The notes beneath the pieces were generated by a model. The model was not told where the DNA came from and did no database searches. It worked only from the letters and a program-made list of their open reading frames with translations. Position numbers and translations under genes: made by a program. A stretch of 52,428 bases of DNA from Streptomyces pseudogriseolus (lineage in GTDB: Bacteria > Actinomycetota > Actinomycetes > Streptomycetales > Streptomycetaceae), in contig MUNG01000147.1 of assembly GCA_002154585.1 (NCBI GenBank), positions 1 through 52,428 on the forward strand. The letters are read 5' to 3'. This document shows positions 3,745-12,678 of the stretch, piece by piece (position 1 is the stretch's first letter; each line of letters begins with the position of its first letter).

Positions 3745-5955
3745 TCAGTCCTGATCTTGTCCGTCGGCGGGGTCCCGGCCCGCGCAGAGGGCCAGCACAT
3801 CGGACCCGTAGCGGCGCAGCTTGCGCATGCCCACCCCGGGGATGCGGGCCAGTTCGTGCTCGTCGTCGGGGACCGCCTCGGCGATGGCGATCAGCGTCTT
3901 GTCGGTGAAGACGCAGAAGGCCGGCTGACCGCTGCGCCGCGCCTGCTCACCGCGCCAGTCACGCAGCCTCTCGTACAGCCCCTCGTCCATGTCGGAGGGG
4001 CAGTCCTCGCAGCGCATCAGCTTCATCTCGCCGCCGTCGGTCAGCGTGCGGCCGCAGACGCGGCAGCGGGCGGGCGTGCGCTGCCGGCGGCGCGGCGCCT
4101 GCTCGGGGACCGCCGGGGCCGCCGCCGTCCATGAGCCGCGCTCGACTCCTCCCGCGCCGGCCGCGCCCGCGCGCCCCGCGCCGGCCTGCGAGCCGGGGCG
4201 CAGTCCCGTCAGGAAGCGGCTGGGGCGCCGGTTGGGACGGCCGCCCGGTGAGCGGGAGAGCGCCCAGGAGAGGTGGAGGTGCTCGCGGGCGCGGGTGACC
4301 CCGACGTAGAGGAGGCGGCGTTCCTCCTCGATCTGCTCGTCCGTCTTCGCGTAGGTGATCGGCATCATGCCCTCGGCGACGCCGACCAGGAAGACGACGT
4401 CCCACTCGAGGCCCTTGGCGGCGTGCAGCGAGGCGAGCGTGACGCCCTGGACGGTGGGGGCGTGCTGGGCGCCGGCCCGCTCGTCGAGTTCGACGACGAG
4501 GTCGGCGAGCGTGGCGCCGGCCCGGGCGGCGGCGAAGTCCTGGGCGAGGTGCACCAGGGCGGCCAGGGATTCCCAGCTTTCCCGGACCGCGCCCGACCCG
4601 GCGGGCGGCTGGGGCGTCCAGCCCTTGCCGGAGAGCACGGCGCGCACCTGGGAGGGCAGGTCGGGGGCGTCGTCGAGGAGGGAGTCGTTGCCGCCGAAGC
4701 GGGCCGCGGCGCGCAGGGCGTTGATCGCGTTGCGCACCTCGGGGCGGTCGAAGAACCGCTCGGCCCCGCGCAGCTGGTAGGGCACGCCGGCGTCGGCGAG
4801 GGCCTGCTCGTAGGTCTCGGACTGGGAGTTGGTGCGGAACAGGACGGCGATCTCGCTCGCCGGGACGCCCGAGGCGATCAGCTCGCGGATGCGGCGGGCG
4901 GCGCCCTCGGCCTCGGCGGGCTCGTCGGTGTACTCGGTGAAGACCGGCTCGGGTCCGGCGGGGCGCTGGGAGACCAGCTCGAGGCGGTGGTCGGCGGCGC
5001 GGCCCTTCGCCTGGGCGAGCAGCCCGTTGGCCAGGCGGACCACCTGAGGGGTCGAGCGGTAGTCACGGACGAGCTTGACGACGGTGGCGCCCGGGTGGCG
5101 GACGCGGAAGTCGAGCAGGTGGTCCGGGGTCGCGCCGGTGAAGGAGTAGATGGTCTGGCTGGCGTCGCCGACCACGCACAGGTTCTCCCGGTCGCCGAGC
5201 CACAGCTCCAGCAGGCGCTGCTGGAGGGGGCTGACGTCCTGGTACTCGTCGACGACGAAGTGCTGGTACTGGGCCCTCACCTGCTCGGCGATGTCGTGCC
5301 GGTCCTGGAGGACGGCGACCGTGAGCAGCAGGACGTCCTCGAAGTCGATGACGGACCGCTCGCGCTTGAGGTCCTCGTAGGCGGCGTACAGCTGGGCGAT
5401 CTCCGCGGGGTCGCGGGGCGCCTCCCGGCCGGACTTGGCGGCCGCGGCCGTGTAGTCGGCGGGGACGGTCTGGGTGACCTTGGACCACTCGATCTCGGCG
5501 GTGACGTCCCGCAGCTCCCCCCGGTCGAGGCGGATCCGGCAGGCGGCGGCCGCGTCGGCGACCAGCTGGATCTTGCGGTCCACCAGCCGGGGCAGGGACC
5601 CGCCGACCGCCTTGGGCCAGAAGTACTGGAGCTGGCGCAGGGCCGCGGAGTGGAACGTCCGCGCCTGGACGCCCACCGCGCCGAGCTGGCGCAGCCGGCC
5701 GCGCATCTCCCCCGCCGCGCGGTTGGTGAACGTGACGGCGAGGACGCTGGAGGGCTGGAGGATGCCGGCGCGCACCCCGTAGGCGATGCGGTGGGTGATG
5801 GCCCTGGTCTTGCCGGTGCCGGCGCCCGCCAGCACGCACACCGGTCCGTGCAGCGCGGTGGCGACGGCGCGCTGCTCGGGGTCGAGACCTTCGAGCACCG
5901 CGTCGGCCGAGTCCGGTACCCGCGGGAAGAGGGTGGAGTGCGTTGCTGCTGTCAC
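3745..5955 (-). CDS. uvrD2: UvrD2-type ATP-dependent DNA helicase with HRDC domain
   Basis: A 736-residue superfamily 1 helicase. The Q-like motif is LDPEQRAVA and Walker A is GAGTGKT at about 44-50. TFTNRAAGEM, the Walker B VDEYQDVS and QTIYSFTGA follow in order, then VVKLVRDYRST and the C-terminal helicase motif LHAAKGLEWDVVFLVG. After a Pro/Arg linker come four cysteines (CRVCG and CEDC) and a C-terminal HRDC domain (FCVFTDKTLIAIAEAVP). The tetracysteine plus HRDC tail is specific to actinobacterial UvrD2. The GTG at 5955 was chosen because family members begin close to TAATHSTLF; the frame runs open to 6054 without a better start. It is divergent from the mycoredoxin gene. Confidence 0.92.
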   Translation of the reverse strand: MTAATHSTLFPRVPDSADAVLEGLDPEQRAVATALHGPVCVLAGAGTGKTRAITHRIAYGVRAGILQPSSVLAVTFTNRAAGEMRGRLRQLGAVGVQARTFHSAALRQLQYFWPKAVGGSLPRLVDRKIQLVADAAAACRIRLDRGELRDVTAEIEWSKVTQTVPADYTAAAAKSGREAPRDPAEIAQLYAAYEDLKRERSVIDFEDVLLLTVAVLQDRHDIAEQVRAQYQHFVVDEYQDVSPLQQRLLELWLGDRENLCVVGDASQTIYSFTGATPDHLLDFRVRHPGATVVKLVRDYRSTPQVVRLANGLLAQAKGRAADHRLELVSQRPAGPEPVFTEYTDEPAEAEGAARRIRELIASGVPASEIAVLFRTNSQSETYEQALADAGVPYQLRGAERFFDRPEVRNAINALRAAARFGGNDSLLDDAPDLPSQVRAVLSGKGWTPQPPAGSGAVRESWESLAALVHLAQDFAAARAGATLADLVVELDERAGAQHAPTVQGVTLASLHAAKGLEWDVVFLVGVAEGMMPITYAKTDEQIEEERRLLYVGVTRAREHLHLSWALSRSPGGRPNRRPSRFLTGLRPGSQAGAGRAGAAGAGGVERGSWTAAAPAVPEQAPRRRQRTPARCRVCGRTLTDGGEMKLMRCEDCPSDMDEGLYERLRDWRGEQARRSGQPAFCVFTDKTLIAIAEAVPDDEHELARIPGVGMRKLRRYGSDVLALCAGRDPADGQDQD

Positions 5956-6072
5956 ACCGCCATGCTGCCAGGTCGCCCGGGACAGGTGAGCCGGTTGTCC
6001 ACAGGGAAGGGCCTGCGGTCGTACGAATGCGACAAGCGTCACGGGACCGGTCATGGGGCCGGGGCGGCGGCG

Positions 6073-6147: not shown

Positions 6148-6405
6148 ATGCAGGGCACTGTGACGATGTACAGCACCACGTGGTGCGGCTACTGCCGCCG
6201 GCTGAAGAGCCAGCTGGACCGTGAGGGCATCGCGTACACCGAGATCAACATCGAGCAGGACCCCGAGTCGGCGGCCTTCGTGGAGAAGGCGAACGGCGGC
6301 AACCAGACGGTGCCCACTGTTCAGGTAGTTCCCTCCAGTGGCGGCACCGAGGTCGTGATGACGAACCCGAGCCTTGCCCAGGTGAAGCAGGCACTCGGCG
6401 TCTGA
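6148..6405 (+). CDS. mrx1: mycoredoxin (glutaredoxin-like), hybrid gene with element-supplied 3' end
   Basis: An 85-residue thioredoxin-fold protein with the redox pair in WCGYC (Cys13, Cys16), the cis-proline TVP (55-56) and the C-terminal TNPSLAQVK helix. Mycoredoxins reduce mixed disulfides with mycothiol. The ATG at 6148 follows a GAAGGAG/GAGAGG region. Residues 1 to about 56 are host sequence. From about 6312 on, the DNA belongs to an inserted element, which continues the reading frame and replaces the original tail: VQVVPSSGGTEVVM before TNPSLAQVKQALGV, instead of LFPDGSTL before TNPSLAQVKQKIGV. The hybrid is five residues longer than the reconstructed native protein (85 versus 80) and ends at its own terminator. 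Catalytic residues are intact, so it is probably functional. Confidence 0.9.
   Translation: MQGTVTMYSTTWCGYCRRLKSQLDREGIAYTEINIEQDPESAAFVEKANGGNQTVPTVQVVPSSGGTEVVMTNPSLAQVKQALGV
6304..6320 (+). repeat. attL of the integrated element
   Basis: A 17-bp segment inside the mycoredoxin gene that recurs at 11408-11424 with three mismatches; the shared central block is GTGCC (6310-6314). It marks the left host-element junction, because sequence to its right diverges from the expected mycoredoxin 3' end found at the other junction. Confidence 0.8.
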
Positions 6406-6421
6406 CCCTTGCGAGACGCAG

Positions 6422-6454
6422 CCCCCGACCGGCCTGACGCTGATCGGGGGTTTT
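6422..6454 (+). terminator. element-borne terminator behind hybrid mycoredoxin gene
   Basis: CCCCCGA / TCGGGGG stem followed by TTTTG. It lies inside the element and gives the rebuilt mycoredoxin gene a transcription end 17 nt after its stop. Confidence 0.82.
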
Positions 6455-6626
6455 GTGTGCCCCGGGGAGACCGCAGCGGCAGGACCAAGGCCCGCCCCCG
6501 GCAACCACCGCTGTAGATGCGAGGCCCTCCTGAACGCGCCCTGCACAGGGCGCAGAGAGACTGAGCGCTCCACCTGGTGGCCGTCACCGACAGAACCTCT
6601 GAGCGCGTGGTAGCAATGCCGCAGGT

Positions 6627-7424
6627 TCAGAGCGCGAGCACAGGCCGAGTAGAGAAGTCCTCGCAAAGGTCCTCACCATCCGGGCCATACACGAACTCGA
6701 CCATGGATGGGTTGCGATTGGCGGTGGCCAGGGGCAGCCATGCCAGCATGTGGCCGTAGCCGCCGCACACCGACTCGCCACCGTCTCCGCCGTGGACCGC
6801 TGTAACGTCGCTCGTCAACTCCGTGCGGTAGGTGTCGTAGGCGATGCGCAGGCCGAAGGCGTTCAGCTGGTTCTGCGGGCCCGTGCGGTCCCCGTAGGGG
6901 ATGCGGTCGAGGGGGCAGTCGTTCCCCCACCGAAACAGGGTTTCTGCCCCAGCTCCACAAGCGTGCTCCCACTCGTCGGGGCTCGGCATCCGCAGGCCAC
7001 GAGCCGCGAGAACAGCCGGCATGTCAGCAGGCAACTCGGTCAGGTTCTCGTCCTCCACAGCCATGAGCACAGTGGCCAAGACGACGCTCCGGCGGGGGCT
7101 GAGCACCTGCGCGAGGTGGGCCCGCAGGTCGGATCCGTAGCCGAAGCCCTGCTCCAGGCTCTCGGCGTAGTCGGCAGTCTGCTGCGGGGTCGGTTGCCAA
7201 CTGTTCAGGTCGAAGCCGAGGGACACCGGCCCTCCGGGTATCAGAGCGAATTCCTGTCCGTTCCGCTCGATCCGGATGCGATGAAGCGGAGCACCGAGGT
7301 GCTCTGTGGTCTCAACGAGTGTCACCCGACCGTCAACCAAGCCGGCGGCCTCCTCGGCGACGCGGCGTGCGGTAGGCAATTCGAAGGATCGCCACTGGTC
7401 GAAAGTGAGATCAGAGAGAGACAT
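6627..7424 (-). CDS. formylglycine-generating-enzyme/SUMF1-like protein (probably non-canonical)
   Basis: About 265 residues. After an N-terminal helical part comes a fold-typical series: FALIPGGPVSLGFD, a middle with SPRRSVVLATVL, then LRMPSPDEWEHACGAG, LFRWGNDCP and NAFGLRIAYDTY. These match the SUMF1/FGE (C-type lectin-like) superfamily order. The canonical enzyme's RGGSW segment and the paired active-site cysteines near the C-terminus are not visible; only one Cys (DLCEDF) remains near the end. Sulfatase activation is therefore unlikely, and a structural or ligand-binding role is more plausible. The ATG at 7424 gives MSLSDLTFDQW; an upstream GTG at 7454 is possible. Neither start has a strong SD. 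It is cargo of the integrated element. Confidence 0.7.
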   Translation of the reverse strand: MSLSDLTFDQWRSFELPTARRVAEEAAGLVDGRVTLVETTEHLGAPLHRIRIERNGQEFALIPGGPVSLGFDLNSWQPTPQQTADYAESLEQGFGYGSDLRAHLAQVLSPRRSVVLATVLMAVEDENLTELPADMPAVLAARGLRMPSPDEWEHACGAGAETLFRWGNDCPLDRIPYGDRTGPQNQLNAFGLRIAYDTYRTELTSDVTAVHGGDGGESVCGGYGHMLAWLPLATANRNPSMVEFVYGPDGEDLCEDFSTRPVLAL

Positions 7425-7580
7425 GGACCGCAGTGTTGCACGCAGGTCTGACACGGCTCGCGACCACTGCACTCCAGAACTGAGCTGCGGTCGCGAAAGC
7501 CTCCAAGGAAGTCCAAGCGGACACTGGCGGCGGACCGTGGCCACCTTTCCTGGTTCGGGACGCACCCGTGTACGCCTGTC

Positions 7581-8165
7581 TCAGGCGCCCTCGCCGAGGT
7601 GGCGGTAAAGAGTGGCGCGGGAGATCCCGAGAGCCTTGGCGATGGCGCTCACGCTCTCGCCCTTCGCCTTTCTGGCACGGGCCACGGTGAGCACGTCCCC
7701 ATCGACGACGGACGGCCGTCCGCCTGTACACCCCTGCGCCTTGGCTGCGTCGAGTCCTGCGCGGGTGCGCTCCTTGATGAGGCTGCGCTCGAACTCCGCC
7801 ATGGCTCCGACCACCTGAAGCATGAGACGGCCGTCAGCTGTACCGGGGTCGATGTTGGCCAGCGCGCCTGTGAGCACCTTGAACCCGATGCCCCGCTCTC
7901 GAAGGGTGTCGACCATGGTCACAAGGTCGATGAGGGACCGAGCGAAGCGGTCCAGCTTCCACACGCACAGGGTGTCGCCGGGTCTGGCGTAGTCCAGTGC
8001 GGCCCTGAGCTCTGGCCGGTTGGTGTTCTTCCCGCTGGCCTTGTCCTCGAAGATGCGGGCGCACCCTGCGGCCGTCAGTGCGTAGCGCTGCAACTGCGCT
8101 TCCTGGTCATCGGTCGAGACGCGGGCGTATCCGATGAGCTGACCGGTGATCGTGTTCGTCGTCAC
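7581..8165 (-). CDS. small serine recombinase (resolvase/invertase family)
   Basis: A 194-residue recombinase. The catalytic serine is in IGYARVST (Ser17); the conserved Arg region is KLDRFARS, with MAEFERSLIKERTRAG in the E helix. The C-terminal helix-turn-helix (SVSAIAKALGISRATLYRHL) has the full DNA-binding motif of Tn3 resolvases and Hin/Gin invertases. It starts with GTG at 8165. Directly upstream is a cluster of GAGACG motifs in both orientations, a good candidate for its own recombination or operator site. In this element it probably acts beside the large integrase, for example in multimer resolution or inversion. It could also act as an excision partner, though large serine integrases normally use a different directionality factor. 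Confidence 0.92.
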   Translation of the reverse strand: MTTNTITGQLIGYARVSTDDQEAQLQRYALTAAGCARIFEDKASGKNTNRPELRAALDYARPGDTLCVWKLDRFARSLIDLVTMVDTLRERGIGFKVLTGALANIDPGTADGRLMLQVVGAMAEFERSLIKERTRAGLDAAKAQGCTGGRPSVVDGDVLTVARARKAKGESVSAIAKALGISRATLYRHLGEGA

Positions 8166-8174
8166 GGCCGGGAC

Positions 8175-8298
8175 TGTCTCAGAACTCGTCTCAATACGTC
8201 AAGCCCGAGACGGAAGTTTCGAGACGGGTTTTGAACAGCGCTGCGCCCCCTTCCGGGGCGCCTGCCGTCTCGTCTCACAAACCTTGGTTTTCGAGACG
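8175..8298. repeat. cluster of GAGACG/CGTCTC motifs, candidate res/operator site
   Basis: TGTCTC 8175-8180; CGTCTC 8187-8192; CGAGACGG 8206-8213 and 8220-8227; CGTCTC 8266-8271 and 8271-8276; CGAGACG 8292-8298. Both orientations occur, with 12-14 bp spacing between neighbours in the left half. They lie immediately upstream of the small serine recombinase gene, where res sites usually lie. Confidence 0.65.
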
Positions 8299-8530
8299 CC
8301 CGTTACTCGTCACGCTGGGCCGCGGTCGGGCTGTGCTCTCTGCCGTGTGTTGGCCAGCGCTGCGCGTGTCCGCAACGGCAAGAGGCTGTGAGCCTGTCTG
8401 CCTGCCTGCCGCTGTGCTCTCGCCTGCCTGCCAGGGGCACAGCCTGTCAGCCGCTCACGCTGGCGCACAGCCGTTCGCTTGCCACGGGACACGGGCCGCT
8501 GGCCAGCCTCTCGACGGCGGAGGAGAGGCA

Positions 8531-8647
8531 ATGGCGAAGGGGGGTATGACCCGGGCCTTACCCGACCGCCGTGTCTTACCGGCTCAAATCCTGCCACGGT
8601 TTCAGGGCCTTTCAGGCTGGCCTGTACTCCAGCCGGCCGAGGCGTAA
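8531..8647 (+). CDS. possible small ORF, 38 codons
   Basis: ATG at 8531 is preceded by a strong GGAGGAGAGG Shine-Dalgarno, and the frame runs to TAA at 8645-8647. The product (MAKGGMTRALPDRRVLPAQ at its N-terminus) matches nothing I recognise. It is the only rightward candidate in the element interior, and the RBS is the main support. Confidence 0.3.
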   Translation: MAKGGMTRALPDRRVLPAQILPRFQGLSGWPVLQPAEA

Positions 8648-8812
8648 CGCCTGGTCAAAGGCCTGCGCTGCCTCCTTGGCGACGGCGAAGGAGTGCACAG
8701 AACGAAGCCTTACGTCCTTGCCTGTGGGGCGCGGCAGCGCCCCCCTTGGGCTTGCTCCTGTCGGCCCCTGCTGGGCCGCACTGTCGTAGAGGCTTCGGGC
8801 TGTGGCGGCCAT
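8612..8812 (-). CDS. possible small ORF, about 66 codons
   Basis: The C-terminal half reads like protein (VHSFAVAKEAAQAFDQAL, amphipathic helix). The N-terminal half is made by hairpin repeats (SPRGALPRPTG), and the start lacks a clear SD. Possibly a decayed gene end. Confidence 0.25.
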   Translation of the reverse strand: MAATARSLYDSAAQQGPTGASPRGALPRPTGKDVRLRSVHSFAVAKEAAQAFDQALRLGRLEYRPA

Positions 8813-8929
8813 CCGGCCGCCCATGCTGCCTACTACTTCGCCGATGCCTTCTCTTGGGGCGCTGCCGCGCCCCGCTCTGCTTGCCGGGGGCCGCGAAGCC
8901 GCTTTTTTCTGTCGGCCCCTGCGGGGCCG
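8726..8929. repeat. duplicated two-hairpin module
   Basis: Hairpins GGGGCGC-4-GCGCCCC at 8726-8743 and 8856-8873 each precede a hairpin of the form CGGCCC..GGGCCG (8762-8778 and 8913-8929). The sequence around the second hairpin of each pair is nearly identical (CTGTCGGCCCCTGC). A T6 run lies before the last hairpin. This could be an origin, a structured RNA or a repeat family; function unknown. Confidence 0.5.
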
Positions 8930-9033
8930 CAACTGCGAGGGGTAACAGAAGAGAGAGCGCGCGAACCTTTCCGCAGGTCACTGCCCCTGTAGCTACACGT
9001 ACGGCGTGTGCTGGCCACACCTGCGGTGTATGG

Positions 9034-9450
9034 TCACCGGTCTTGATGGACGCGGCACGGTACCGGTGCACCCTCCCCCTTCTGGAAGAGGTGAGAGGGC
9101 AGGACCAGGCAAGCGGCACCCGACCGGGGCGAGACGAGCCCAAACCTCTTGGCGCGGTTGACCGCGTTGGTCGTGCTCTGGTCGGACAGGGGCTTGCCCT
9201 CCTTGCCCAGCAGAGAGGCCAGCTTCCCAGGGTCGAAGGCTGCATGACCCTGGCGGTCAGCCCAGCCCAGCGCAGCGAAGTGCACTCGGTAGGCGAGCGG
9301 GTGCCAGGGTTCCTGCGCCATGCGCCGGTACTCGCGCTGGGAGACTCCGCCCCACGGGCGGTCATGACCGAAGCTGATGGCCACTGGCTGCGGCTCCTTC
9401 CTGTGAGGCGCACACGGGTGCGCCAGCGGCCCCGCCGGGCGGCGGGACAT
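9034..9450 (-). CDS. winged-helix-like protein of the integrated element
   Basis: A 138-residue protein. The ATG at 9450 has a very good AAGGGAG Shine-Dalgarno 6 nt upstream. The C-terminal half (FDPGKLASLLGKEG, then TNAVNRAKRFGLV and CLVLPSHLF) looks like a winged helix-turn-helix, as in small regulators or replication accessory proteins of Streptomyces plasmids and prophages. The N-terminal half contains FGHDRPWGGVSQREYRRM and WHPLAYRVHFAALGW. It lies downstream of the integrase on the same strand, separated by a terminator. A role in regulating integrase or excision is possible but not shown. Confidence 0.65.
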   Translation of the reverse strand: MSRRPAGPLAHPCAPHRKEPQPVAISFGHDRPWGGVSQREYRRMAQEPWHPLAYRVHFAALGWADRQGHAAFDPGKLASLLGKEGKPLSDQSTTNAVNRAKRFGLVSPRSGAACLVLPSHLFQKGEGAPVPCRVHQDR

Positions 9451-9596
9451 GTGTCTCCCTTCTTTGCGGGGGTGGCCGTGCAGAAGGCACAGCGCTTCAC
9501 AGGTGGGCGCCCAAAGCTTCGGGCCTGGACTCGGTCTCATGCAGTCGGGAGCGACGGCGGCGACCTGGCCCGGCATCGTACATCATGCTGAAACGG

Positions 9597-9623
9597 GGAA
9601 GGCCCCCATGGTCGGGGCCTTCC
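9597..9623 (-). terminator. terminator after the integrase gene
   Basis: 10-bp perfect stem GGAAGGCCCC / GGGGCCTTCC, loop 7 nt, starting 18 nt after the integrase stop codon (leftward). Confidence 0.8.
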
Positions 9624-9640
9624 TTGCTCGCTCGGCAGCA

Positions 9641-11344
9641 TCAGACGGGAGCCGTAACCTTCTCGGCCTCGCCTGCTCCCTTGGCTTCCTCTTCGGCTTT
9701 CGCTTGCTGCGCCGCGCGTTCAGCCTCGAAATCCTCCCAGCGGCTGACGATCTCCCACTCGGCGCCCGTAAGCGTCGTGGGCTTCTCGTACGGCTTTCCG
9801 GGCAGCGAGACCGGTGTGATTGGTGCGAGCACTTGAGAAGCCTTCACGGGGGTGACCCACCACGAGACACCCTGCTGCCGGATGTTCTCGATGAGGTCGC
9901 CGGGATCGATGGCAAGGGCATCGGGCCGGAAGTGCGCCTTCACCTTGTGCTTCTTCAGAAACTCCCGCCGCTCGTCGACGCTCGACCGCACCCACCACTC
10001 CGCGTAGCTCTCGCCCGTACCGGTCCACACGGTCACCGGCTTCGGTCCCTCCTGGCTCGTTACCTTCTCTCGGTCCTGGGCAAGGCTGGCGACTTGTGAG
10101 GCGTACGCGACGGCGCTGATCTCGTCCTGCTGGAGTTCCTTCAGGAGCTGGTTCATCTTGCCGTCGATGACGGCGAGCTTCGCCGCACGGCTGTCGTCGA
10201 TGGTCGTCTTCGACTCCATCCGTTCCAGGTGGCCGATCTCTCCCAACAGAGCCGACTCCAGCCAGGGGTACAAGTCCTCGGCCCAGAACCTCTGCTTCGG
10301 GCATGCCTGAATGCCCTTGCTCTTGTTTCCGTGGCAGCGGTACCGCTCCCGCTTGCCCTTGGCCGGGTCGCCCTTCACGAAGTACAGGGAGCTGCCACAC
10401 AGCATGCAGAACGTCACGCCCACCGTCGGCGACGTAGAGCCCTTCTGCTTCTTGTACTTGACCGAGGCGACGGCTTCCGACAGCTTCGCCCACTCCTCCT
10501 CGTTCAGCACCGGCTCAGACCGCATGACGGGAGTGCCGTCGTCATTGCGGACCACGGCGCCATTCGCGCGTACGTACTCCCCGAGCAGAGACCGGCTGAC
10601 CAGTACGGCTTGCACTGTGGTCGGCGTCCATCTGGCGCCCCGAGGCTTCGGGTCCGCCAGCCGAGTTGTGCTCTCGCCTGCCGCCGCGCGGATGCGAGCG
10701 ATGTCCTGAGCCGTGGGCACGCCTTGCTCGTTCAGCCAGTCGGCGACGGCCGAGAAACTCGGCTTCTCGATGAAGCGCCGGATCATCTCGATCAGCGTCG
10801 GGCCGTACTCGGGGTCGAGTTCGAGGGTGAAGCCTGCGTCGCCCTTCACCGCTCTGCGTCCGAACGGGACAAGGCCACCCGGCCAACGACCAGTCTTTCG
10901 CATGGTCTCCCGGGAAGCCTTGTTGCGGGCCTTGATGGCGTCCAACTCGGCCTCTGCGACCACGGCCAGGATCTTGGCGATGGTCTTGCCCCATGGCTTC
11001 GAGAGGTCGAATCCCTCCTCGCAGGAGATGAGGCCCTTACCGTTCGCCTCGCACCACTCAATGATGTCCGAGAGATGGCGGACCGACCGCGCGATGCGGT
11101 CGATCTTCAGGATGATGATGTGGTCGAACTGATCCTTCTTGTTGTTGAGCCAGTCCCCCAGGGACGGACGCACCCACGGCGAGATGGACGCCGACACGTC
11201 GATGTCGACCGCAAAGTCGACCAGCTCCATTTCCTCCGCGTCGGCCCGCTTACTGATGCGGGTCCGCTGCGTTTCCTCGCCGGTCTGGTTCTCGTTGCCT
11301 ACAGACAGACGGACCACGCCAAGCGCCCTGGGCTTGTCGCTCAC
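9641..11344 (-). CDS. large serine integrase
   Basis: A 567-residue large serine recombinase. The catalytic Ser14 lies in VVRLSVGNEN, the conserved Arg region is ILKIDRIARS, and the catalytic-domain end is AEAELDAIKARNKAS. The recombinase domain follows (RWPGGLVPFGRR, FSAVADWLNEQGVPT, WTPTTVQAVLVSRSLLGEY), then the zinc ribbon (CMLCGSSLYF and YRCHGNKSKGIQAC) and a coiled-coil region. GTG at 11344 has a GGGGAGG ribosome site. Size and domain order match phiC31/TG1-type integrases. It lies about 65 bp from the right attachment site, the usual place, and its target is evidently the mycoredoxin gene. The tail is Glu/Ala/Lys-rich. Confidence 0.95.
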   Translation of the reverse strand: MSDKPRALGVVRLSVGNENQTGEETQRTRISKRADAEEMELVDFAVDIDVSASISPWVRPSLGDWLNNKKDQFDHIIILKIDRIARSVRHLSDIIEWCEANGKGLISCEEGFDLSKPWGKTIAKILAVVAEAELDAIKARNKASRETMRKTGRWPGGLVPFGRRAVKGDAGFTLELDPEYGPTLIEMIRRFIEKPSFSAVADWLNEQGVPTAQDIARIRAAAGESTTRLADPKPRGARWTPTTVQAVLVSRSLLGEYVRANGAVVRNDDGTPVMRSEPVLNEEEWAKLSEAVASVKYKKQKGSTSPTVGVTFCMLCGSSLYFVKGDPAKGKRERYRCHGNKSKGIQACPKQRFWAEDLYPWLESALLGEIGHLERMESKTTIDDSRAAKLAVIDGKMNQLLKELQQDEISAVAYASQVASLAQDREKVTSQEGPKPVTVWTGTGESYAEWWVRSSVDERREFLKKHKVKAHFRPDALAIDPGDLIENIRQQGVSWWVTPVKASQVLAPITPVSLPGKPYEKPTTLTGAEWEIVSRWEDFEAERAAQQAKAEEEAKGAGEAEKVTAPV

Positions 11345-11407
11345 CCTTGCCCCTCCCCAAGACAGGGGCGGCCCTCCCTGGCCGCCACAAGTAAGGAGGG
11401 AAGTCTA

Positions 11408-11424
11408 CAGACCGTGCCGACCGT
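11408..11424 (+). repeat. attR of the integrated element
   Basis: The 17-bp partner of attL with three mismatches. To its right the DNA continues as the original mycoredoxin 3' end; to its left is element DNA. The shared block is GTGCC at 11414-11418. Confidence 0.8.
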
Positions 11425-11494
11425 GCTGTTCCCCGACGGCTCGACGCTCACCAACCCCTCGCTCGCGCAGGTGAAGCAGAAGATCGGCGTCTGA
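11408..11494 (+). pseudogene. stranded original 3' end of the mycoredoxin gene
   Basis: Twenty-eight codons and a stop, encoding QTVPTVLFPDGSTL followed by TNPSLAQVKQKIGV. This is the C-terminus expected for a Streptomyces mycoredoxin, in frame with the break at 6304-6320. It has no start codon or RBS of its own and should be silent unless the element excises, when it would restore the native 80-residue protein. Confidence 0.88.
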
Positions 11495-11588: not shown

Positions 11589-12533
11589 TCAGAAGGTGCT
11601 GCGGGTGGGCAGGGCCTCGCCGTACCAGCGTTCGATCAGCCGGGCGGCGATCGAGATGCCGTAGGGCGGGAGGACCTCGCCGGAGTCGAAGGCGGCGCGC
11701 AGTTCGTCGCGGGAGAACCAGCGGGCCTCGTGGATCTCGTCGCCGTCCACGGTGATGTCGAAGGACGTGGCGTGGGCGACGAAGCCGAGCATGAGGCTGG
11801 AGGGGAACGGCCAGGGCTGGCTGGCGACGTACTCGACCTCGCCGACGGCGATGCCGACCTCCTCGTGCACCTCCCGGCGCACCGACTGCTCGATGGCCTC
11901 CCCCGGCTCGACGAACCCGGCGAGCGTGGAGAAGCGTCCCTCGGGCCAGTGGACCTGGCGGCCGAGCAGGATGCGGTCCTTGTCGTCGATCACCGCCATG
12001 ATCACGGCGGGGTCGGTGCGCGGGTAGTGCTCGGCACCGCAGGCGGGGCAGCGGCGGATGTGCCCGGCGGCGGCGATGACGGTGCGCTCGCCGCAGCGGG
12101 AACAGAAGCGGTGCAGCCGCTGCCAGTTCTCCAGGGCGACGGCGTGCACCATCAGGCCCGCCTCGCGGGGCGACAGCAGCAGCCCGGCCTCGCGCAGGCC
12201 CGCGGGGCGGGCGGAGTCGTCCATGCGGCCGGGCAGGGAGTCCTTCTGGAGGGCGAAGTAGCTGACGCCGTCCTCGTCGATGCCCAGGAAGTAGCGGTGG
12301 GCCTCGGTGAGCGGGGCCTCGAAGGACGGGGTCATGACGAGTTCGGTGCGCCCGTCCGGTGCCTCGTCGATGAGGACCTGGCCGCCGGAGACCACGAAGC
12401 AGCGGGTCGAGGGGTGGCTCCACGCCGCCGCGAGCCATGCCTCGTCGAGCCGGTGGTGGGCGGCGCGGTCGATGCCGCTCGGGGCGGTGAGCGAGATGGG
12501 CCGGTCGGCGGTGTGGTCGGTCCTGGTGGTCAC
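11589..12533 (-). CDS. nudC: NADH pyrophosphatase / NAD-capped RNA hydrolase NudC
   Basis: A 314-residue Nudix enzyme that cleaves NAD(H) and, in studied homologues, NAD-capped RNA. A zinc ribbon (CSRCG, then CPACG) precedes the Nudix domain. The Nudix box reads GFVEPGEAIEQSVRREVHEE. The NudC-specific SQPWPFPSSLM motif follows. GTG at 12533 was chosen because the TTG at 12545 abuts the GGGGGAG ribosome site too closely. It is convergent with the mycoredoxin locus. Confidence 0.93.
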   Translation of the reverse strand: MTTRTDHTADRPISLTAPSGIDRAAHHRLDEAWLAAAWSHPSTRCFVVSGGQVLIDEAPDGRTELVMTPSFEAPLTEAHRYFLGIDEDGVSYFALQKDSLPGRMDDSARPAGLREAGLLLSPREAGLMVHAVALENWQRLHRFCSRCGERTVIAAAGHIRRCPACGAEHYPRTDPAVIMAVIDDKDRILLGRQVHWPEGRFSTLAGFVEPGEAIEQSVRREVHEEVGIAVGEVEYVASQPWPFPSSLMLGFVAHATSFDITVDGDEIHEARWFSRDELRAAFDSGEVLPPYGISIAARLIERWYGEALPTRSTF

Positions 12534-12678
12534 GGGTGCTTCCAACTCCCCCGGTGGTACGGATCGGGTCGCGGGTGGTCTGGCGGACGAGGGCGGCAGG
12601 GACCGGGTCCGTGGGGCGCGGCGGCGCGGCTCTTCCAGTGTGCCGCGCGCGGGCGCCCGCTTCGGACGGCGTGGGTGG

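Follow-up and report, generated by a model that had tools for sequence, protein, structure and literature searches.

A serine-integrase element rebuilds the 3′ end of a mycoredoxin gene, and such elements have probably exchanged this gene end repeatedly across Streptomyces

How can a mobile element enter a conserved protein-coding gene and leave it unbroken? The question is raised by a locus of Streptomyces pseudogriseolus (assembly GCA_002154585.1, contig MUNG01000147.1), within a stretch of 52,428 nucleotides that was analysed as a whole and that we call the window. An initial annotation had claimed that a 5.1-kb element with a large serine integrase sits in a mycoredoxin gene of this stretch and rebuilds its 3′ end. 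The claim was borne out by an empty site in a related genome (G132), by 19 distinct occupied mycoredoxin loci and by 17 reconstructed element attachment sites (attP). The annotation covered one case of a wider pattern. Two C-terminal forms of mycoredoxin occur across Streptomyces, probably because serine-integrase elements repeatedly swapped the last 29 codons of the gene and then vanished; a core redox protein would thus have been edited repeatedly.

The features on which the argument rests are as follows.
6148..6405, forward strand: rebuilt mycoredoxin gene, 85 amino acids (TIGR02200 above cut-off; Glutaredoxin, PF00462; predicted full glutaredoxin fold)
6310..6314, forward strand: core GTGCC of the left junction (attL), central CC at 6313-6314, host DNA on its left (junction alignment with locus L111; palindrome centre in 17 attP sites)
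6315..6405, forward strand: gene tail supplied by the element, codons 57-85 and stop codon (departs from the host tail past the core; same tail type in 18 element-bearing loci)
6329..6336, forward strand: right attP arm TTCCCTCC, which doubles as codons within the tail (sequence; 17 attP reconstructions)
6433..6448, forward strand: terminator-like stem from the element (stem scan; stretch conserved in 4 aligned elements)
9641..11344, reverse strand: large serine integrase, 567 amino acids (Resolvase, Recombinase and Zn_ribbon_recom above cut-off; phrog_95 integrase)
11395..11402, forward strand: left attP arm GGAGGGAA (sequence; 17 attP reconstructions)
11414..11418, forward strand: core GTGCC of the right junction (attR), central CC at 11417-11418, host DNA on its right (junction alignment; attP palindrome)
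11417..11494, forward strand: displaced native mycoredoxin tail of the host, frame visible from 11408 (junction alignment)
11589..12545, reverse strand: NudC-type NAD(+) diphosphatase, right flank (NF001299 above cut-off)

The split gene and its empty site

The genome G132 (locus L111) has no element. Its mycoredoxin gene has a native tail that is followed by nudC at a distance of 83 nt, and its upstream flank is 96.3% identical to that of the window over 1,417 nt. The left junction of the window (GACGGTGCCC) matches G132 host DNA through the core and then diverges; the right junction (GACCGTGCCG) matches it from the core onward. G132 thus runs from the left junction directly into the 11.4-kb tail, as had been predicted for an element-free genome. 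The crossover is bracketed to GTGCC by substitutions relative to G132 on both sides. The limits proposed in the initial annotation, about 6312 and the 11,408 region, were correct within about 10 bp of the two cores, and the length of the element from core to core is 5,104 bp (CC at 6313 to CC at 11417).

The true 3′ end of the gene had been placed at 11,408-11,494, and the native tail was indeed read there. It translates to QTVPTVLFPDGSTLTNPSLAQVKQKIGV, stands before nudC and matches G132 from the core on. No direct repeat in the region is longer than the one formed by the two tails, which are 76% identical over 49 nt at a spacing of 5,089. The rebuilt protein scored 95 bits against the NCBIfam mycoredoxin model TIGR02200, for which the cut-off is 89.5. 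One further mycoredoxin-like match was present in the genome of the window at just 39% identity, so the rebuilt gene is the only close mycoredoxin copy found there. The rebuilt target gene, the displaced fragment and the empty site in a relative, which together mark a gene-restoring insertion, were all found at this locus. As claimed earlier, the element supplies the tail in frame and the stop codon. The terminator attributed to it is less certain: the stem is present and conserved in four elements, but the scan alone was not significant (4 terminator-like sites in the region against 3.0 expected).

Elements at the same site in other genomes

Among 392 genomes of the genus, in which three candidates were scored per genome so that relatives could be missed, at least six besides the window had a near-complete integrase of >50% identity, all in the mycoredoxin gene and adjoining a displaced tail and nudC. 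A named genome collection yielded 19 loci. In 17 of them, 15 in Streptomyces and 2 in Actinoplanes, the integrase stood beside a displaced tail and nudC; of the remaining two, L061 is at another site, and the sequence of L064 is too short for a decision. With the five assemblies common to both sets counted once, and with G109 and the window included, the search for the integrase family at this gene gave 19 distinct occupied mycoredoxin loci; in 17, a single contig holds both halves of the gene.

The elements differ in size. The smallest, L063, is a remnant of about 0.9 kb, others span 2.5-14 kb, and the largest two measure about 31 and 34 kb. These two hold genes of prophage type (portal, tail, primase or terminase, for example), and portal, terminase or tail genes are present in the relatives G109 and G030. 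As the cargo varies while integrase, tail and site stay, the constant module consists of these three. In L058 (G392) and L059 (G368), the integrase is at the same end of the element in reversed orientation, with its 3′ end towards the right junction.

No free phage or plasmid form was found: an integrase of >60% identity was absent from the phage records (1,006 matched) and from the plasmids (861 matched), and a search of the phage collection with the element tail itself was negative. Among viral contigs there were 38 loci. The closest of these, L273, has 49% integrase identity and lies at another site, as does L061 (49%); fidelity to the site was therefore seen only above about 50% integrase identity. 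The junction of L273 is also GTGCC, behind an arm GGGGGCAAA.

The integrase and its attachment sites

The domains PF00239, PF07508 and PF13408 were all above cut-off in the single 567-residue protein. Residues R12, S14, Q20, D82, R83 and R86 were invariant among 7 aligned relatives. They can be assigned as the putative catalytic serine and active site by comparison with the Bxb1 and PhiC31 residues listed in the accessible text of PMC12884075, a comparison of residue lists made without alignment to those proteins.

At 17 loci, attP was rebuilt by joining the element halves of attR and attL. Complementarity about the CC of GTGCC was 0.60 across these sites, compared with 0.12-0.36 at 12 other centres. 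The arms GGAGGGAA and TTCCCTCC lie 15-22 bases from the centre of the palindrome, and the right one codes for VVPS. Relative to the native tail, that of the element has five additional residues, which fall within a strand-turn-strand coded by the right attP arm. The dual role of this arm, as integrase site and as codons, may explain the five extra residues.

The rebuilt protein

A model of the 85-residue protein, made with 12 sequences, showed an entire glutaredoxin fold with a predicted local distance difference test score (pLDDT) of 89.7. The last two strands and the last helix of the modelled fold come from the element. The best match in the PDB was Mrx1 (2LQO; TM-score 0.78, 48% identity). 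For 13 codons of the element tails in 18 element-bearing loci, the proportion of nonsynonymous differences (pN) was 0.066 and that of synonymous differences (pS) 0.463, giving pN/pS of 0.14. Such a low ratio is as expected if the tails are constrained at the protein level and serve as a working protein end.

Two tail classes across the genus

When a profile from 11 element tails was searched in the 392 genomes, 151 scored below 1e-17 and 12 between 1e-17 and 1e-12 (163 below 1e-12); in the rest the match was weak or absent. The element-type, or foreign, tail thus occurs in 151 of 392 genomes, against at least seven with a near-complete related integrase. In the class beyond this genus, 268 genomes were searched without a match below 1e-12 (best E 2.5e-12), and 12 outgroup tails that were inspected had the native length. 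We read 160 loci, the 12 genomes of intermediate score being excluded: 90 were foreign-tailed, 69 native-tailed and one frameshifted.

For 149 loci, a tree was derived from the genes on either side together with the opening 150 nt of mycoredoxin. On this tree, tail type requires 45 changes, compared with 49.0 (standard deviation 3.1, minimum 41) in 300 label shuffles, so tail type hardly follows the history of the locus. Sister pairs differed in their tails in 16 of 44 cases. These 16 and 4 further close mixed pairs were compared with 21 of the 28 same-tail sister pairs. In the 20 different-tail pairs, identity was 0.951 over the 120 nt that lead up to the core and 0.327 over the 30 nt that follow it, a calculation in which the flank value of L169/L210 (0.53) was retained though apparently an alignment fault. 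The values for the 21 same-tail pairs were 0.975 and 0.911. Identity broke at the core in all 20 different-tail pairs.

According to the initial annotation, its claim would be refuted by close relatives that lack any integrase and yet have mycoredoxin in the 85-residue form. Such relatives exist and are common. The reading of an inserted element stands nevertheless, because the displaced tail is present and because the sequences of these relatives and of their native-tailed sisters part at the same core.

Relics of lost elements

Of 81 foreign-tailed loci with at least 40 nt of gap behind the gene, 6 contained an orphan tail there; none of 56 native-tailed loci did, and there were none on the reverse strand. 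A further orphan tail, outside this count, is in L159. Of the six, the one in L190 is a foreign-type tail, and the element in L058 likewise stands before a tail of this type. By their sequences, these two loci point to more than one round of exchange. When L146 is aligned with L233, both junctions of a decayed insertion, a few hundred bases long, can be seen. In G136 (L151, 3728-3987 in gene orientation), the integrase has shrunk to a short fragment with a stop, and mycoredoxin retains the element tail.

Element features were graded among the groups of loci. The GC content at third codon positions (GC3) of the tail was 0.78 where the integrase is present (18 loci, including L062/G393, whose integrase match is limited to residues 1-206), 0.85 with remnants (10), 0.92 in a third group (17), and 0.96 with no known remnant and a short gap (56); that of native tails was 0.95. 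The attP-arm score in the same order was 7.44, 7.5, 6.29, 5.93 and, for native tails, 5.26. Comparison of the first two groups with the short-gap group gave P values of 2.5e-11 and 6e-10, relatedness being ignored. A match past the stop codon to the 3′-end and terminator stretch of the element was present in 12 of 73 foreign-tailed loci without a known remnant, in 5 of 16 with one, and in 2 of 69 native-tailed loci. Alignments that extended 45 nt or more beyond the stop codon, or into genes of the element, were found in 15 of 67 loci with a foreign tail and in one of 32 with a native tail, namely L117; the query contained the tail, and the matches were anchored in it. The open frames of 13 foreign-tailed loci, whose gaps measure 0.8-2.7 kb, were inspected without a family search, and no near-complete relative of the integrase was recognised among them.

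The orphan tails, the element fragments and the graded loss of element features suggest that most element-type tails in element-free genomes are scars of lost elements. For the 56 loci free of remnants, we infer element loss from the common breakpoint and the gradients.

How the tails may have been exchanged

We consider it very probable, judging from these sequences, that the integrase mediates tail exchange at mycoredoxin and that later decay of the element leaves swapped tails behind. The large serine integrase would recombine attP with a host site (attB) on the codons for QTVPTV, in the cis-proline loop of the protein, with the crossover within GTGCC. Because of the placement of attP, the DNA to its right would continue in frame as a complete substitute C-terminus, followed by a stop codon and the terminator-like stem. 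Integration would then exchange the tail with the gene unbroken, orphaning the native tail about 5 kb off beside nudC, and the right attP arm would serve both the integrase and the VVPS codons. If the element later decayed or were deleted, the foreign tail would be kept and the orphan native tail lost, giving species with a swapped C-terminus.

Several observations weigh against this mechanism or its reach. The circular form of the element, expected from its presumed excision, was not seen. In attB, complementarity is 0.41 about the CC and 0.46 six bases away, and thus fails to locate the centre. In 56 of the 90 foreign-tailed loci, nudC follows after a short gap and no remnant is known. Gaps are longer in foreign-tailed loci (median 164 versus 104 nt), which leaves more room for a chance relic, though the reverse-strand controls gave none. 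Loci were picked by tail score and not at random, and P values ignore relatedness. The native-tailed locus L117 (G307) has orfB, a cargo gene of the element, and element DNA behind a hybrid-looking tail that ends in the element's codons; its sister L121 (G224) has the same tail end and no element. In this lineage the tail was probably changed back by homologous recombination, beyond integration alone, so homologous recombination does act at the mycoredoxin locus.

Might most element-free foreign tails then have spread between strains by homologous recombination after a few original insertions? Streptomyces recombine, and L117 with L121 resembles a tail changed back. Tracts of recombination should, however, often begin further upstream, whereas all 20 mixed pairs hold flank-level identity up to the core and collapse right after it, and we regard this explanation as rather unlikely. 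We think it quite improbable that Streptomyces mycoredoxin has had the longer tail as a natural allele since long ago, that elements captured a copy, and that the element-free carriers never had an element. In favour of this view, the tail is common (151 of 392 genomes), and the 56 of 90 loci without known remnant have a GC3 of 0.96, as high as native. It was not seen, however, in the 268 class genomes outside the genus, where the tails that were read had native length; tail type hardly tracks the flanks (45 changes versus 49.0 ± 3.1); and part of the element-free genomes hold relics, element DNA or intermediate GC3. In general terms, the 11.4-kb tail could belong to another gene or be a duplicate arisen by chance or in tandem, next to which the integrase happens to lie; we find this hardly conceivable here: the same layout recurs in 19 distinct loci with differing cargo and sizes, a near relative has the empty site, no tandem copy free of an integrase was seen, and the displaced tail lacks its own start. 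Exchange by the integrase followed by decay of the element is the explanation we prefer, with decay as the presumed main source of the element-free foreign tails.

Comparison with known systems

Restoration of genes by mobile elements is already known. Islands often reconstitute the genes they enter, according to the accessible text of PMC12884075, and the corresponding text of PMC9262239 describes reconstitution of tRNA genes. The latter text also states that serine integrases of mycobacteriophages use cores as short as 3 bp and do not use tRNA genes, and that integration of Bxb1 inactivates GroEL1. The Bxb1 prophage in groEL1 of Mycobacterium is similar in having a large serine integrase with an actinobacterial protein-coding attB; it inactivates its target (accessible text of PMC9262239), whereas the mycoredoxin element rebuilds it. 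Among the islands and prophages catalogued by TIGER/Islander, those that enter tRNA genes by tyrosine integrases and restore them likewise carry a replacement 3′ end and leave a displaced fragment. Here, in contrast, the integrase is a serine integrase with a 5-bp core, the target codes for a protein, and the replacement tail is 76% identical DNA specifying another protein length instead of an identical block.

SCCmec, a cassette inserted at the 3′ end of rlmH, uses large serine recombinases (Ccr) and preserves the end of the host gene on insertion. The present element differs from it in gene, host and content, and its integrase is far below the Ccr cut-offs: an SCC-type cassette was rejected (CcrB 33.5 of 900 bits, CcrA 21.7 of 700, CcrC 18.9 of 900; target mycoredoxin and not rlmH). 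In prophage e14 and phage 21 at icd of Escherichia coli, the element's version replaces the C-terminal coding segment of this metabolic enzyme; integrase class, gene and host are all different there, and we know of no genus-wide scars at icd. The att-int systems described for Streptomyces (PhiC31, R4, Samy and others) belong to serine integrase phages of the same genus with other attB genes. The initial annotation had called rebuilding by a serine integrase unusual, which is fair, yet it is not unheard of, given SCCmec and the islands above.

The accessible main text of a paper on Streptomyces integration systems (PMC12924846) does not contain the string 'redoxin'. A mycoredoxin or glutaredoxin attB for a serine integrase, or genus-wide scars of one, was not described in the literature searched, whose coverage largely left aside subscription journals. 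The element belongs with those that restore their target gene, by means of a serine integrase. What appears new is the site, a substitute tail that would double as an attP arm, and exchange of the end of a core redox protein across a genus.

For genome engineering, the locus offers a new attachment site for serine integrases within a conserved gene of actinobacteria, together with many natural variants of the integrase. Intact element, remnant and scar form a dated-looking series in which a site-specific recombinase appears to have repeatedly replaced the end of a protein, and this series allows one to ask whether mobile elements shape the evolution of housekeeping enzymes. For annotation, a divergent C-terminus can be a recombination scar rather than a product of slow divergence.

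Other genes of the element and its surroundings

The initial annotation had counted three other solid genes besides the integrase, and three genes fit this count. They and the left flank are listed below.
3745..6054, reverse strand: helicase gene, left flank, presumably UvrD/PcrA-like by its general family (open reading frame; same gene beside mycoredoxin in related loci)
6627..7424, reverse strand: orfB, cargo gene without clear family (weak FGE-sulfatase and phrog_18508 matches only)
7581..8165, reverse strand: small serine recombinase of DNA-invertase type (PF00239, HTH_7, phrog_125)
9034..9450, reverse strand: orfC, 138 amino acids, modelled as helix-turn-helix or winged helix (no family match; model pLDDT 71)

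No phage structural or packaging genes were found among five open reading frames of the window searched in PHROGs. Family searches with the integrase, the small recombinase, orfB and orfC gave no FtsK/TraB-like transfer or replication genes, and a PADLOC scan for defence genes gave weak helix-turn-helix matches only. Both orfB and orfC have relatives in sister elements, and neither has a clear family; orfB is 94% and 85% identical to genes in two of these (L054, L055). The orfC product had no family match, and its medium-quality model no significant match in the PDB. A match to orfC is absent in some elements, for example L054. Relatives of orfC adjoin distantly related large serine integrases in L002, L009, L018, L019, L021, L023 and L030. 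This neighbourhood would suit a directionality factor or an integrase regulator, for which orfC is an unproven candidate. The genome of the window has a second large serine integrase, 37% identical to the first (G000:C30:9940-11535).

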